From Flavobacterium muglaense (lineage in GTDB: Bacteria > Bacteroidota > Bacteroidia > Flavobacteriales > Flavobacteriaceae), in assembly GCF_014305155.1 (NCBI RefSeq), contig NZ_JACRUK010000016.1, positions 1 through 64,000 on the forward strand: a DNA stretch of 64,000 nucleotides, in the 5' to 3' direction. Positions 55,446-59,714 of this stretch are shown here, one piece after another. Within the stretch, counting starts at the first letter, position 1. Each line of letters opens with the position of its first letter. Under the pieces are notes generated by a model. That model was not told the DNA's origin and made no database searches. It saw only the letters and a list, made by a program, of their open reading frames with translations. The translations under genes and the position numbers were made by a program.

Positions 55446-57672
55446 AACAATTATTAGTTACAAAGTTGCAAGATCTCAAAGTTGCAACGTCTTAAAATTG
55501 CAAAAAGTTGCAAATTTCAAGAGATTCACTCTTTTATCTATTCTATTTTCTTCAATTTCTTTTGCCCAAGTTAAGGATACAACTACGGTAAACAAGCTAG
55601 ACGAAGTCTTGGTTTCGGCTGTACGTGTCACTACTAAAACGCCGGTTAGTTTTAGCAACTTAGACAAAAAAGAAATCAAATCTCGCAATTTAGGGCAAGA
55701 TATTCCAATTTTAATGAATTACCTTCCATCGGTTGTTACAACCTCTGATGCTGGGAATGGTGTGGGCTATACTGGTATTCGTGTGCGTGGTAGCGATGCA
55801 ACACGAGTAAATGTGACCATAAACGGAATTCCGTACAATGATTCAGAGAGTCATGGCACTTATTGGGTTAATATGCCTGATTTTGCGTCATCGGTAGAGA
55901 GCTTGCAGCTGCAACGTGGGGTAGGTACTTCTACAAATGGTGCAGGAGCTTTTGGCGCAAGCCTTAATATGTTAACTGATGCTTACGCAAAAGTGAGTAA
56001 TGGTGAAATTTCTAATTCAATAGGAAGCTTTAATACCCATAAACATACAGTAAAATTCAGCACTGGCTTGTTAAACGATCATTTTGAATTAGCTGGACGA
56101 TTATCTGTATTAAAATCAGATGGCTATGTGGACCGCGCTAGTTCCGACATGAAATCGTATTTTTTACAAGGAACCTATGTGGGGAAATCGACTTTGATTA
56201 AAGCTTTAGTTTTTGGCGGAAAAGAAAAAACATATCAATCGTGGAATGGATTGGAAGATCTGGATGTTTTAAAAAATGACAGAACTTTTAATACAGCTGG
56301 GATGTACACCGACGAATTTGGCAACACCAAGTTTTACGATAACGAAACCGATAATTACCAGCAAGATCATTTTCAATTGCATTGGAATGAAAAAGTATCA
56401 GCTGCATGGAGTACGAATTTGGCTGTTTTTTATTCGAAAGGAAAAGGCTATTATGAAAACTATAAGGAGAATGCTAAGTTTTCTGGGTATGGATTGACGC
56501 CAATAGTTATAGGTGGAACAACGATTAATAGAACCGATTTGATTCGTCAAAAATGGTTGGACAATGATTTTTATGGTACTACTTTTTCGGCTAATTATAA
56601 GCACGAAAAATGGGATGTGATCCTAGGTGGCGGGTACAATAAATACGAAGGAAGTCACTTTGGTAAGGTGATTTGGGCGCGATATGCATCAACATCTGAA
56701 GTAGGAGATCGCTACTATGATGACAGTGCTACAAAAACAGATGCTAATGTTTTTGCGAAAGCTAATTATCAAGTGGTAGAAAAGCTTAGTTTATTTGGAG
56801 ATTTACAAGTACGCGCGGTACGATATAAAGCGAATGCAGCTGAGACAGGTGTGGTAAATGATACGTTCCGCTTTTTTAATCCAAAAACAGGTTTGAATTA
56901 TGCTATCAACTCAAGTAATCAATTGTACTTTTCGTATGCAAGAGCTAATCGCGAGCCGAATAGAACCGACTATGAAAACGGAAGTCCTAGACCCGAAAAA
57001 TTAAATGATTTTGAGTTAGGATTGCGTCACAATACAGCAAAGATAAAACTGAATGCAAATGTGTATTACATGGCATACAAAGACCAATTAATTTTAACAG
57101 GAGAACTGGATGATGTAGGCGCGCCTATTCGTAAAAACAGCGGGGATAGTTATCGCTTAGGTTTAGAGTTAGATGCTACAGTAGCGGTTTTGGATAACTT
57201 AATTATCAGGCCTAATATGACGATTAGTACGAATAAAAATAAGGATTTCTTTTTTACTAGAGACGGGGTTTTAACATCTTTAGGAAATACAAATATCGCT
57301 TATTCCCCAGATTTTATTGCAGGGAACATCATTACTTTTTTGCCTGTGAGTAATTTACAAATTTCGTTTTTATCAAAATTTGTAGGACAGCAATACATGG
57401 GAAATATAGATTCCGAAGGATCAAAGCTTAAATCATATTTTGTAAACGATTTAAATTTCTCGTATGAGTTCAAACCAAAGTCGGTTTTTAAATCTATTTT
57501 GATCACTGGATTGGTAAATAATATTTTTGACTACAAATACATTTCAAATGGTTATTTCTACACCTATGATGATGATTATTCTAATCCTCCGGCAATTACA
57601 ACCATCGAAGGAGCAGGTTATTATCCTCAAGCGGGAATTAATTTCTTGGTAGGATTAACGCTGAAGTTCTAG
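55441..57672 (+). CDS. TonB-dependent receptor, likely for thiamine
   Basis: This 743-residue outer-membrane receptor has a plug domain (about residues 55-160; the TonB-box region is near LDEVLVSAVRV, then NLGQDIPILMNYLPSVVTT and GIRVRGSDATRVNVTINGIPYND) and a beta-barrel ending in GINFLVGLTLKF with a terminal phenylalanine. A TPP riboswitch in its leader makes thiamine or a precursor the likely substrate. The start lies in a stem-loop. The first 30 codons are odd: they read through a run of CAAAGTTGCAA-like repeats (VARSQSCNVLKLQKVANFK) before a normal signal segment (FTLLSILFSSISFAQ), so the signal peptide is longer than usual. A terminator follows. Confidence 0.93.
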   Translation: MKTIISYKVARSQSCNVLKLQKVANFKRFTLLSILFSSISFAQVKDTTTVNKLDEVLVSAVRVTTKTPVSFSNLDKKEIKSRNLGQDIPILMNYLPSVVTTSDAGNGVGYTGIRVRGSDATRVNVTINGIPYNDSESHGTYWVNMPDFASSVESLQLQRGVGTSTNGAGAFGASLNMLTDAYAKVSNGEISNSIGSFNTHKHTVKFSTGLLNDHFELAGRLSVLKSDGYVDRASSDMKSYFLQGTYVGKSTLIKALVFGGKEKTYQSWNGLEDLDVLKNDRTFNTAGMYTDEFGNTKFYDNETDNYQQDHFQLHWNEKVSAAWSTNLAVFYSKGKGYYENYKENAKFSGYGLTPIVIGGTTINRTDLIRQKWLDNDFYGTTFSANYKHEKWDVILGGGYNKYEGSHFGKVIWARYASTSEVGDRYYDDSATKTDANVFAKANYQVVEKLSLFGDLQVRAVRYKANAAETGVVNDTFRFFNPKTGLNYAINSSNQLYFSYARANREPNRTDYENGSPRPEKLNDFELGLRHNTAKIKLNANVYYMAYKDQLILTGELDDVGAPIRKNSGDSYRLGLELDATVAVLDNLIIRPNMTISTNKNKDFFFTRDGVLTSLGNTNIAYSPDFIAGNIITFLPVSNLQISFLSKFVGQQYMGNIDSEGSKLKSYFVNDLNFSYEFKPKSVFKSILITGLVNNIFDYKYISNGYFYTYDDDYSNPPAITTIEGAGYYPQAGINFLVGLTLKF

Positions 57673-57686
57673 AAATTTTTTTTCGT

Positions 57687-57725
57687 AAAAAAGAGCCTGA
57701 AAATTAAATTTTTCAGGCTCTTTTT
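57687..57725 (+). terminator. Terminator of the TonB-dependent receptor gene
   Basis: AAAAAGAGCCTGAAA pairs with TTTCAGGCTCTTTTT around an A+T loop. The arms are the same as in the terminator at 59261-59298. Confidence 0.88.
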
Positions 57726-57803
57726 GTTTGGTTTTATATCAAATCATTCCGTTTTACTTTTAAAAATTGTATCGAGAAGTATTAAAGAGCTATTCGATAT
57801 TTT

Positions 57804-58103
57804 CTACTGATTTTTAATATTCGCTCTTGATTTATTAATATTCGCTTCGGCTGGCTCCGGACTTGGTTGTGAACCTGGGTTTGAGGCGATCTGTTGTTTT
57901 TTATTACTCCTAGAGGTGTTGATATTCGCCTCGGCTGATTGTGAACCTGAAGAAGGGTTTGTTGTAAGCTGCTGTTTAATATTACTCCTAGAAGTATTGA
58001 TATTCGCTTGGACAGATTGTGAACTTGAAGAAGGAGTTTCTTGTGCTGCTGCACTTAAACTTACTGCAAACATAACTGTGATAACAAAATGTGACTTTTT
58101 CAT
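57804..58103 (-). CDS. Small secreted protein with ANINTSRSN repeats
   Basis: The 99-residue product has a signal peptide (about residues 1-21, ending SAAAQ). The mature part is three repeats of ANIN(T/K)SR(S/A)N(I/K)KxQ at residues 33, 59 and 87, spaced 26 and 28 residues apart by serine/proline/glutamine-rich linkers, for example TPSSSSQSVQ. I do not recognise the family. The repeats could be short ligand- or surface-binding segments. A second reading frame on the same strand is open only because the DNA is repetitive. It is divergent from the beta-barrel gene at 58495 and shares with it an identical upstream motif. Confidence 0.65.
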   Translation of the reverse strand: MKKSHFVITVMFAVSLSAAAQETPSSSSQSVQANINTSRSNIKQQLTTNPSSGSQSAEANINTSRSNKKQQIASNPGSQPSPEPAEANINKSRANIKNQ

Positions 58104-58180
58104 GATATAATTTTTTCATGATTAATTAAATTCGCATCTCCAAATTATACTATATAATTGCTTGTTAAGATGCTTTCGTA

Positions 58181-58215
58181 GTTATATCAACTCTACTATA
58201 ATTTTGTTACCCCTA
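58181..58215 (-). promoter_or_regulatory. Bipartite promoter-like motif of the secreted repeat protein gene
   Basis: On the minus strand TAGGGGTAACAA (58204-58215) and GATATAAC (58181-58188) are 15 bp apart. The same two words at the same spacing precede the divergent gene at 58495. The layout resembles an extracytoplasmic-function (ECF) sigma -35/-10 pair. The gap to the ATG is about 77 bp. Confidence 0.6.
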
Positions 58216-58417
58216 TTTTCTTTTTTTATAAAAAAACAATACAAAGCCACTGACTACAATTTGAGTTTCAAAATTTTTAAATACATAGAATCTTACTTTT
58301 TGATCTCAAAACAATACCTTCTTACATATAATTATGTCTTCATATAATCAACTGATACTGATTGATTTTCTCAAGTGAATTCTTATTTTCGCGTTTTTTT
58401 TCAAAAAAAATAAAAAT

Positions 58418-58452
58418 TAGGGGTAACAATCAAACCCCATAATGGATATAAC
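58418..58452 (+). promoter_or_regulatory. Bipartite promoter-like motif of the beta-barrel gene
   Basis: TAGGGGTAACAA (58418-58429) and GATATAAC (58445-58452) are 15 bp apart, the same as the motif before the divergent gene. The ATG is at 58495, 42 bp on. It does not match the normal TAnnTTTG promoter. Confidence 0.6.
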
Positions 58453-58494
58453 ACTATAAAACTAAAACAGTAAAAACATTAAATTCTAAACATC

Positions 58495-59214
58495 ATGAAA
58501 AAAAGTATTGTAATCGCACTTATCGCATTAACAGGTTTAACAGCAAATGCACAACGTTTAAAATTTGGATCTAAACTAGGACTAAACGTGAATTCAATTA
58601 TTAGAAACGCAACAGTAAACCAAGTTGAAGACGAAATAAAACTAGGGTATTTGGCAGGAAGTTATTTAGATGTTAAAATTACAAAGCGTGTGCATATACA
58701 ATTTGAGTTATTATATGCTAAAAACAATTATAACACAACCGAGAACAGTAACATCAGCCCTGCGATGCCAACGGATTTAATTACAAATTCCAATGTAACC
58801 TTAAACCCATCCGATATTATCAAACAATCTGTGGTTGAAAATTACAAAACGGCGTATATCAATGCTCCAATATTAGCCAAATTCTATCCTGTAAAATGGT
58901 GGAGTCTCGATGCTGGTGTTCAGGCTGGCTATTTGTTAGACGCTGAAAGATTGGTAAAAGAAAACGTAACAATCACACCAACTATGAATAACTCAAACCC
59001 ATCCGTTTCTTTAAGCAGTACTCCTTTGGACGAAATAGCAACAAAAGAGTTTGAACGTTTACAGTTTGGAGCACTAATTGGTTCTACTTTGTATTTTACC
59101 AAAAACGTAAATTTAGGTCTTCGTTATGACTTAGGAATTACAAATCTTAGAGACCGCAATAGCAACAAAGAGAAAAACGGTGTTTTTGCAGCCTCATTAG
59201 GATATAGTTTTTAA
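58495..59214 (+). CDS. PorT-like outer-membrane beta-barrel protein
   Basis: A signal peptide (about residues 1-19, ending TANAQ) precedes an outer-membrane beta-barrel domain of the PorT/OMP_b-brl type. Alternating strands begin RLKFGSKLGLNVNSIIRN, with LGYLAGSYLDVKI, VHIQFELLYAKNNY and the C-terminal NLGLRYDLGITNLRDRN and FAASLGYSF with the terminal phenylalanine for barrel insertion. Length is 239 residues. Function is not known for this branch. It shares an upstream motif with the divergent secreted protein, so the two may be co-regulated parts of one envelope response. Confidence 0.88.
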   Translation: MKKSIVIALIALTGLTANAQRLKFGSKLGLNVNSIIRNATVNQVEDEIKLGYLAGSYLDVKITKRVHIQFELLYAKNNYNTTENSNISPAMPTDLITNSNVTLNPSDIIKQSVVENYKTAYINAPILAKFYPVKWWSLDAGVQAGYLLDAERLVKENVTITPTMNNSNPSVSLSSTPLDEIATKEFERLQFGALIGSTLYFTKNVNLGLRYDLGITNLRDRNSNKEKNGVFAASLGYSF

Positions 59215-59260: not shown

Positions 59261-59298
59261 AAAAAAAGAGCCTGAAATTAATTTTTCAGGCTCTTTTT
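59261..59298. terminator. Terminator between the beta-barrel gene and the Rieske-like gene
   Basis: The same arms as at 57687-57725 (AAAAAGAGCCTGAAA / TTTCAGGCTCTTTTT) with a 5-nt loop, in the convergent gap. It can serve both strands. Confidence 0.88.
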
Positions 59299-59300
59299 AT

Positions 59301-59714
59301 TTAATTATAAACTCGCAATACATTTCCGTTCACTTCAACTCGGTATTGTTTTAAAGGATATTGTAAACCGCCTTGACCGGTGAATAAGCTATACTCGTTA
59401 CTATCACAAGGACAAATAATGTTAATCCCTTTTAAGGTCATGGTAGAGCAACTGCTAAGTACTTGGTTAGGACAAGCGGCATCAAATGCGTTATAACCAC
59501 TTCCTGTGTTGAATATGTAAATCCCCTTAACACCTACGCTAGCATAATAAATGGCATTACTAGGATATTGCAAGCTAGAATAAGCAGGCAAATTCATGTT
59601 GATGTCTACGTTAAAGGTATAGCTGGGTAAATAAGGGTTTTTATTATTGAAATTGCTGTCGCTACAACCTGAAAATGCTATTGTTATAAGGAGTACAAAG
59701 AGACTTTTTTTCAT
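59301..59714 (-). CDS. Rieske-fold-like lipoprotein without histidine ligands
   Basis: The signal peptide ends in a lipobox FSGC (C17), and the mature part looks like the Rieske domain fold. Its two loops match the usual CxH and CPxH pattern in place but not in residues: C81-P82-N83 in AACPNQ, and C101-P102-C103-D104 in IICPCDSNEYSLFTG. The histidines that bind the second iron are replaced by Asn and Asp. The rest of the fold (LQYPLKQYRVEVNGNVLRVYN) is typical. The cluster can therefore not be a normal 2Fe-2S Rieske centre; the protein may be a structural or disulfide-stabilised relative. No partner is adjacent. The gene is divergent from greA. Confidence 0.7.
   Translation of the reverse strand: MKKSLFVLLITIAFSGCSDSNFNNKNPYLPSYTFNVDINMNLPAYSSLQYPSNAIYYASVGVKGIYIFNTGSGYNAFDAACPNQVLSSCSTMTLKGINIICPCDSNEYSLFTGQGGLQYPLKQYRVEVNGNVLRVYN

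Follow-up and report, generated by a model that had tools for sequence, protein, structure and literature searches.

A two-part motif in Flavobacterium muglaense and the ECF sigma factor that probably reads it

Two copies of one two-part motif lie between divergent genes for a small secreted repeat protein and an outer-membrane beta-barrel protein in a stretch of 64,000 nucleotides of Flavobacterium muglaense (contig NZ_JACRUK010000016.1, positions 1 to 64,000; referred to as the window). Comparative sequence analysis makes it highly likely, in our view, that both copies are -35/-10 promoters read by an extracytoplasmic function (ECF) sigma factor whose gene lies at 82233-82814 of contig C2, and that this sigma fires a small envelope regulon, feedback included. 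The promoter form is R-GGG-TAACAA, a 15-bp spacer and GATATA, often with YATAAA after it and A-tracts before it. Contigs (C), genomes (G) and loci (L) carry our own labels.

Paired sites in the window and across the genome

The pair TAGGGGTAACAA-N15-GATATAAC is present twice in the window, where no copy is expected by chance (0 of 100 dinucleotide shuffles of the window). An earlier inspection of the same DNA without database searches (the sequence-only reading) had reported identical words and a 15-bp spacer on opposite strands, each copy facing its own gene, and this is correct to the nucleotide. The spacer DNA of the two copies is indeed unlike, and A-rich tracts do lie 5' of both; A is also enriched at the equivalent position across the 203 related sites described below. 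The distance from GATATAAC to the start codon is 42 nt for the beta-barrel gene (ATG at 58495) and 77 nt for the repeat-protein gene (ATG at 58103). The features concerned are as follows.

58181-58215, minus strand: putative ECF-type promoter of the small secreted repeat-protein gene, with -35 GGGGTAACAA at 58204-58213 and -10 GATATA at 58183-58188
58214-58230, minus strand: A-rich tract 5' of this promoter, possibly UP-like
57804-58103, minus strand: target gene for a 99-aa repeat protein with a signal-peptide-like start (judged by eye)
58418-58452, plus strand: putative ECF-type promoter of the beta-barrel gene, with -35 GGGGTAACAA at 58420-58429 and -10 GATATA at 58445-58450
58403-58419, plus strand: A-rich tract 5' of this promoter, possibly UP-like
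58495-59214, plus strand: target gene for a 239-aa outer-membrane beta-barrel protein (PF13568)

A scan of the own genome for the exact word, as the sequence-only reading had proposed, returned no third copy; relaxed copies do exist, four with 2-3 mismatches, all on contig C2. The exact word was thus dropped as a regulon finder, since it recovers only the two window copies and mismatches plus a profile are needed. We built a 51-column profile (model R1) from 52 of 67 non-redundant sites of other loci; of the 15 not used, the window pair and the L009 site had been set aside deliberately and 12 by choice. This model, built without the window sites, scores them at 33.7 bits (plus strand, E 1.2e-7) and 28.2 bits (minus strand, E 6.5e-6). 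It finds eight strong sites in the genome: an array of four on C2, one more on C2, the two in the window and one on C39. The next match, at 17.4 bits, lies inside the sigma gene. All eight are located outside long open reading frames (ORFs) and face an ORF start, and the genes behind them are of envelope type or encode micropeptides. The C2 array lies between an OmpA-like gene (PF00691) and the divergent sigma gene, the fifth C2 site precedes a lipoprotein-like gene, and the C39 site precedes a 200-aa lipoprotein-like gene (lipoprotein and signal-peptide calls were made by eye throughout). The sequence-only reading had proposed a two-gene envelope regulon that might have more members outside the window; such members are found, and two genes is too small a number.

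To define the motif we used 203 sites chosen by their core words, namely 200 of 215 sites at sigma loci (the 15 with a CATCTA -10 were left out) and three from the own genome (two in the window, one at L009). The near-invariant core of this set, GGGTAACAA-N14-TGATATA, is narrower than first noted, as the leading TA and trailing AC of the original words vary. Around the core, GATATA is preceded by TT, A-tracts lie upstream, and YATAAA often comes after. A TAnnTTTG box within 33 nt counted from the first base of GATATA is found at none of the 203 sites, in agreement with the sequence-only claim that the sites do not fit the normal promoter.

The same sites bear on a second proposal of that reading, a pair of sites for one activator. 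We now consider it very improbable that the two words are half-sites for such an activator (LytTR or another two-site regulator, for example) upstream of ordinary sigma-A promoters. Rigid spacing and two conserved words would fit a dimeric activator as well, and both words of the window copies contain TAAC. However, the second TAAC is not conserved whereas ATATA is (the set having been picked by core words, the test is free of bias for the last two letters only), neither TAnnTTTG nor TAnnTTGY occurs in the stated 33 nt at any of the 203 sites, and the motif tracks one ECF sigma and is absent from loci in which region 4 of that sigma is deleted. A LytTR-type pattern, with one word repeated at a distance of about two helix turns, is not seen either, the second TAAC being unconserved and the start-to-start distance 25 bp; the LytTR word and LytTR genes were not searched for.

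The sigma factor, its loci and its distribution

The sigma gene, on a contig other than that of the window, encodes 194 aa and matches TIGR02937 (sigma70-ECF) at 66.2 bits (cut-off 42.9) and, in region 2, PF04542 at 29 bits (gathering score 24). Among sigma regions only 2 and 4 are matched in this short protein; regions 1 and 3 are missing, as is usual for ECF factors. Encoded next is a 241-aa protein with a hydrophobic segment (by eye) and a TPR match (PF14559, 35.2 bits, cut-off 25), which is likely to be a membrane anti-sigma. According to the proposed mechanism, this membrane-anchored protein would hold the sigma in check until an envelope signal frees it. The free sigma would then bind the sites and start transcription there, firing the OmpA-like and tandem micropeptide genes beside the sigma gene, the two lipoprotein-like genes and both window genes.

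We collected 80 sigma-bearing loci from named records, 76 of them titled Flavobacterium; F. johnsoniae strain CI04 (L083) is one that carries an ortholog. The core (up to 2 mismatches) is present on the strand divergent from the sigma in 79 of the 80; this count includes L033, whose site near a contig edge is outside the 215-site list, and the locus without motif is L066. The spacer measures 15 bp at 212 of 214 positions, with one of 14 and one of 16, the latter on the other side of the sigma. Such rigid spacing just upstream of genes is what is expected of ECF-type promoters. There are 1-5 sites per locus (79 loci, own included), and 61 of 136 neighbouring pairs are 55-100 bp apart, many near 70. 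Some sites lack an ATG in the 120 nt behind them. Arrays of 4-5 copies, often about 70-100 bp apart, are seen for example in L025, L032 and L041, and such ATG-less copies occur in them in places; these may reflect stacked promoters or RNAs that are not translated.

Among the products of the genes behind these sites are a 21-22-aa micropeptide, a 99-aa small membrane-protein-like product, a lipoprotein of about 330 aa, an OmpA-like protein and other lipoprotein-like proteins. The 330-aa core lipoprotein has a mean column identity of 72% (39 chosen of 74 found); its structure model (predicted local distance difference test score, pLDDT, 78) has no PDB match with E <= 0.001, so that no function can be derived from the fold. 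A weakly conserved lipoprotein-like family, 28-30% identical to the own-genome member, stands behind the motif in different genomes (L009:5531-6193, L014, L047); the L009 and L014 members have no Pfam match.

The micropeptide ORFs, 21-22 codons long with the ending [L/I]Wx[L/I]ITR, number 17, in 15 of 81 sigma loci, and 16 of the 17 have the -35 word within 90 nt upstream. They are conserved, mostly cationic and end in LITR or IITR (e.g. L010:5946 and 6103, minus strand, and also in loci among L011-L085). The ratio of nonsynonymous to synonymous differences (pN/pS), 0.45 for 8 sequences and 0.36 for 9 sequences in two length groups, was taken over all pairs, which are not independent; it suggests that they are translated. 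In the own genome the micropeptide genes stand in tandem, two intact and one truncated, each with its own promoter copy. That the peptides are membrane-active or regulatory is our guess.

The sigma and the motif occur together in two samples. Among 121 genomes of the genus, a sigma match (E <= 1e-20) was found in 48 and the motif (E <= 5e-4) in 48, with both in 46 (Fisher 2e-28). Full-length sigma genes number 45 rather than 48 because G048, G090 and G109 carry fusions without region 4; counted in this way, the motif is present in 45 of 45 genomes with the sigma and in 3 of 76 others (G044, G048, G108; Fisher 4.8e-30). In the family sample of 149 genomes there are 19 orthologs (at least 224.9 bits, the next best 103.5; a broken match in G137 with 42% identity, two stops and 76.7 bits was counted as no sigma), and the motif (E <= 1e-3) is found in 19 of 19 genomes with the sigma and 4 of 130 others (G185, G194, G223, G259; Fisher 1.8e-20). 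As the genomes are related, all these Fisher values overstate independence. With a plain pattern and up to 1 mismatch, 156 matches fall in 46 sigma-matching genomes and 5 in 5 of the 73 others; a reversed control pattern gives 12 matches over all 121 genomes.

Matches away from the sigma locus matter because part of the co-occurrence is linkage. The profile scans of both samples used stricter filters, and the off-locus counts are lower bounds: among the matches listed, at least 12 of the 45 genomes with the sigma have such a site, compared with at least 3 of the other 76 (p 4e-4). We opened 14 off-locus stretches. In each, the site lies outside long ORFs, and the gene behind it begins like one for a secreted protein or a lipoprotein; seven of these genes appear to represent one orthologous target, and the one in L237 encodes an L,D-transpeptidase (PF03734, 85.3 bits).

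In L232, L233, L234 and L237-L240 the motif is followed by a strongly conserved DNA leader 5' of the target gene (the YkuD L,D-transpeptidase in L237), a possible leader peptide or RNA element. A second 21-aa ORF behind the motif at this position (MAISQHLNKI...) was rejected as a gene, since in two genomes only 10 codons of it remain while the DNA leader is still alike.

The three fusions (L244, L245 and L246, i.e. G048:C19, G090:C8 and G109:C1) join sigma and anti-sigma in one protein of 317-323 aa, made up of sigma residues 1 to 127-129, 3-11 unaligned residues and the anti-sigma from residue 54-59 on. This removes region 4 together with the beginning of the anti-sigma and keeps sigma region 2 and the membrane/TPR part. 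None of the three loci has the motif, though L244 and L245 retain a lone GGAGTAACA word without a -10, and neither profile nor pattern matches anywhere in G090 and G109. The fusions in G048 and G090 may go back to one event, as the two are similar; an assembly error is unlikely in G109, which is a single contig. The fusion protein is possibly a dead or repurposed sigma, and these genomes can be regarded as a natural knockout. The resemblance to an ECF-sigma -35/-10 pair noted in the sequence-only reading is thus supported by the genome-wide sites, the linkage to an ECF operon, the co-occurrence in two genome samples and the absence of the motif from the region-4-deleted loci.

Several observations weigh against this account. 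The match to sigma region 4 (PF04545, E 0.0016) reaches only 18.3 bits and is below the cut-off of 24.1, and the 241-aa protein matches the anti-sigma model NF052375 (E 2.5e-5) at 24.4 bits against a cut-off of 100. Six genomes have a model match and no detected sigma: four (G044, G108, G185, G223) are only 82-95% complete, so that the sigma may be absent from the assembly, and two (G194, G259) are 99-100% complete, with weak and partial matches of 25.2 and 21.9 bits. The window genes themselves have few relatives. The 99-aa repeat protein has no Pfam or NCBIfam match above the curated cut-off and, in a genus search of 199 genomes, a single weak match (E 0.0026) outside its own; for the beta-barrel protein, 60 other genus and 14 kin genomes hold no close ortholog and only distant relatives, the best-scoring 32-40% identical. 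The motif (spacer 15, up to 3 mismatches) occurs at 0 of 49 scanned loci of such relatives, many further weak matches having been given no locus. Because the window genes are lineage-specific and these loci lack the motif, the window sites cannot be confirmed by a phylogenetic footprint of their own. The best account of the window pair is that it represents a lineage-specific extension of the sigma regulon. Finally, G048, whose sigma lacks region 4, keeps one off-locus site, before an L,D-transpeptidase gene.

This last site would also fit a motif read by another ECF sigma, or by several, with the linked sigma as a passenger; some genomes carry ECF paralogs about 30% identical, and the ECF regulons of F. 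psychrophilum have been suggested to overlap (PMC9723704, in the part compared). We consider this explanation unlikely, as the motif co-occurs almost perfectly with this one ortholog in both samples, and the copy described in the next section is present in 112 of 112 genes of this sigma and in none of 11 paralogs.

The promoter-like copy inside the sigma gene

At many loci the motif is also matched in sense direction inside the sigma gene itself, about 265 nt before the start of the likely anti-sigma gene. We aligned 112 distinct orthologs, which were reduced to 21 by removing those at least 80% alike. The words GGTAACA and AT[CA]T, the latter in most cases reading on as AT[CA]TA, are present in 112 of 112 at the spacing of the regulon. 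By codon, 98 has G as its third base in all 112, 99 is always GTA (background 30%; 21 of 21 in the reduced set), 100 is always ACA (background 37%; 21 of 21), 106 always ends in A despite seven amino acids, 107 is TCT in 108 and TAT in 4, and 108 starts with A in 108 of 112. There are 87 columns with at least four amino acids; a third base that is the same letter in at least 95% of the sequences is seen at just two of them, codons 98 and 106. When synonymous conservation is scored in windows of three codons over the full set, the seven windows that start at codons 97-100 and 105-107 rank highest in the gene by both measures. The word is found in none of 11 paralogous ECF genes, and in all three fusions GTG replaces GTA and one flanking A of the -10 is lost.

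We infer that the copy in codons 98-108 is a sigma-dependent promoter for the anti-sigma gene, from which additional anti-sigma mRNA would be made, damping the response. A precedent comes from Corynebacterium, which belongs to a different phylum from Flavobacterium. Experiments in C. glutamicum showed, according to the passages compared, that a SigH-controlled promoter within sigH drives only rshA (PMC3489674).

The copy could instead be kept for the protein sequence, for codon pausing or for RNA structure and be no feedback promoter at all, an explanation that we regard as doubtful, though far from negligible. Val99 and Thr100 do not vary at the amino-acid level either, and the embedded -10 is a variant, AT[CA]TA and mostly ATCTA, with only 17.4 bits for the own-genome copy in model R1. 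Yet a constraint on the protein does not explain the fixed third bases, above all at codon 106 (seven amino acids, always A) and at the near-fixed codons 107 and 108, and the variant CATCTA stands as -10 at 15 of 215 sites beside the sigma as well, including those ahead of the core lipoprotein gene in L037 and L047.

With the feedback promoter as the preferred explanation, we lean slightly towards a fuller account of the circuit. The codons of the sigma gene would hold the promoter that the sigma itself recognises, kept across the Flavobacteriaceae despite amino-acid change, so that each activation yields extra anti-sigma. The same sigma would drive the tandem arrays, often about 70 bp apart, which partly serve 21-22-aa micropeptides (e.g. 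MENLKKIGLNFINTIWTLITR) with a possible role in the circuit or at the membrane. In one side lineage, fusion of region 2 to the anti-sigma would have ended the circuit, and the embedded and local promoters would have decayed.

Surroundings of the window pair and comparison with known systems

Three further features belong to the two-gene module.

58104-58178, minus strand: leader of the small gene with a stem GCATCT/AGATGC, whose stability is no better than chance (z -1.07)
57689-57724, no strand assigned: bidirectional terminator-like repeat at the left border of the module
59264-59297, no strand assigned: near-identical bidirectional terminator-like repeat at the right border

The two border repeats share GAGCCTGAAA...TTTCAGGCTC. 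Adjoining the module is a lipoprotein-like gene (59301-59714, minus strand) whose Rieske-like match is weak (E 0.02, below cut-off); no copy of the motif was found at it. A search of 57600-58700 against Rfam gave 11 matches, all below gathering and all in 57604-57770, with none at the motif.

To our knowledge, alternative-sigma regulons are thinly mapped in the Bacteroidota. An ECF sigma of this phylum appears to gain a promoter code readable from the sequence alone, and its targets (OmpA-like protein, L,D-transpeptidase, lipoproteins, beta-barrels and micropeptides) point to envelope upkeep. With the embedded promoter, regulation appears to constrain the codons of a protein over a whole family. 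Among the papers listed, no description of the promoter was found in the literature searched (including searches for GGGGTAACA and for GTAACA with sigma factor and Bacteroidetes), a search that most subscription journals lie outside of.

NigD proteins are lipoproteins. Their genes are targets of the Bacteroides pair EcfO-Reo, an ECF/anti-sigma pair of the same phylum (PMC13114119; this and the following comparisons cover parts of the papers cited). Porphyromonas gingivalis SigP is likewise an ECF sigma of the same phylum, with targets in the type IX secretion system (T9SS); it differs in its target motif, C(T)AAA(G/C/T)A(T)A(C)T(A/G)A, and in acting downstream of PorXY (PMC4800418). Within the genus, a start-site study of F. 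psychrophilum defined six promoter motifs, SM1-SM6. SM6 is of ECF type, and its genes include an ECF/anti-sigma pair; SM1-3 and SM5 are TAnnTTTG or TAnnTTGY boxes, and SM4 is a sigma-54 promoter; compared by text description rather than by logos, none is worded like GGGTAACAA-N14-TGATATA, and the share of the seven ECF factors of that species in SM6 promoters was, by its account, still to be determined (PMC9723704). SigH-RshA of C. glutamicum differs from the present system in its promoter (gGGAAta - 16-19 nt - C/TGTTgaa) and in responding to other stress, and family-wide codon conservation of its embedded promoter is absent from the passages compared; it shares with our proposal an ECF sigma/anti-sigma pair in which a sigma-controlled promoter within the sigma gene transcribes only the anti-sigma gene (PMC3489674).
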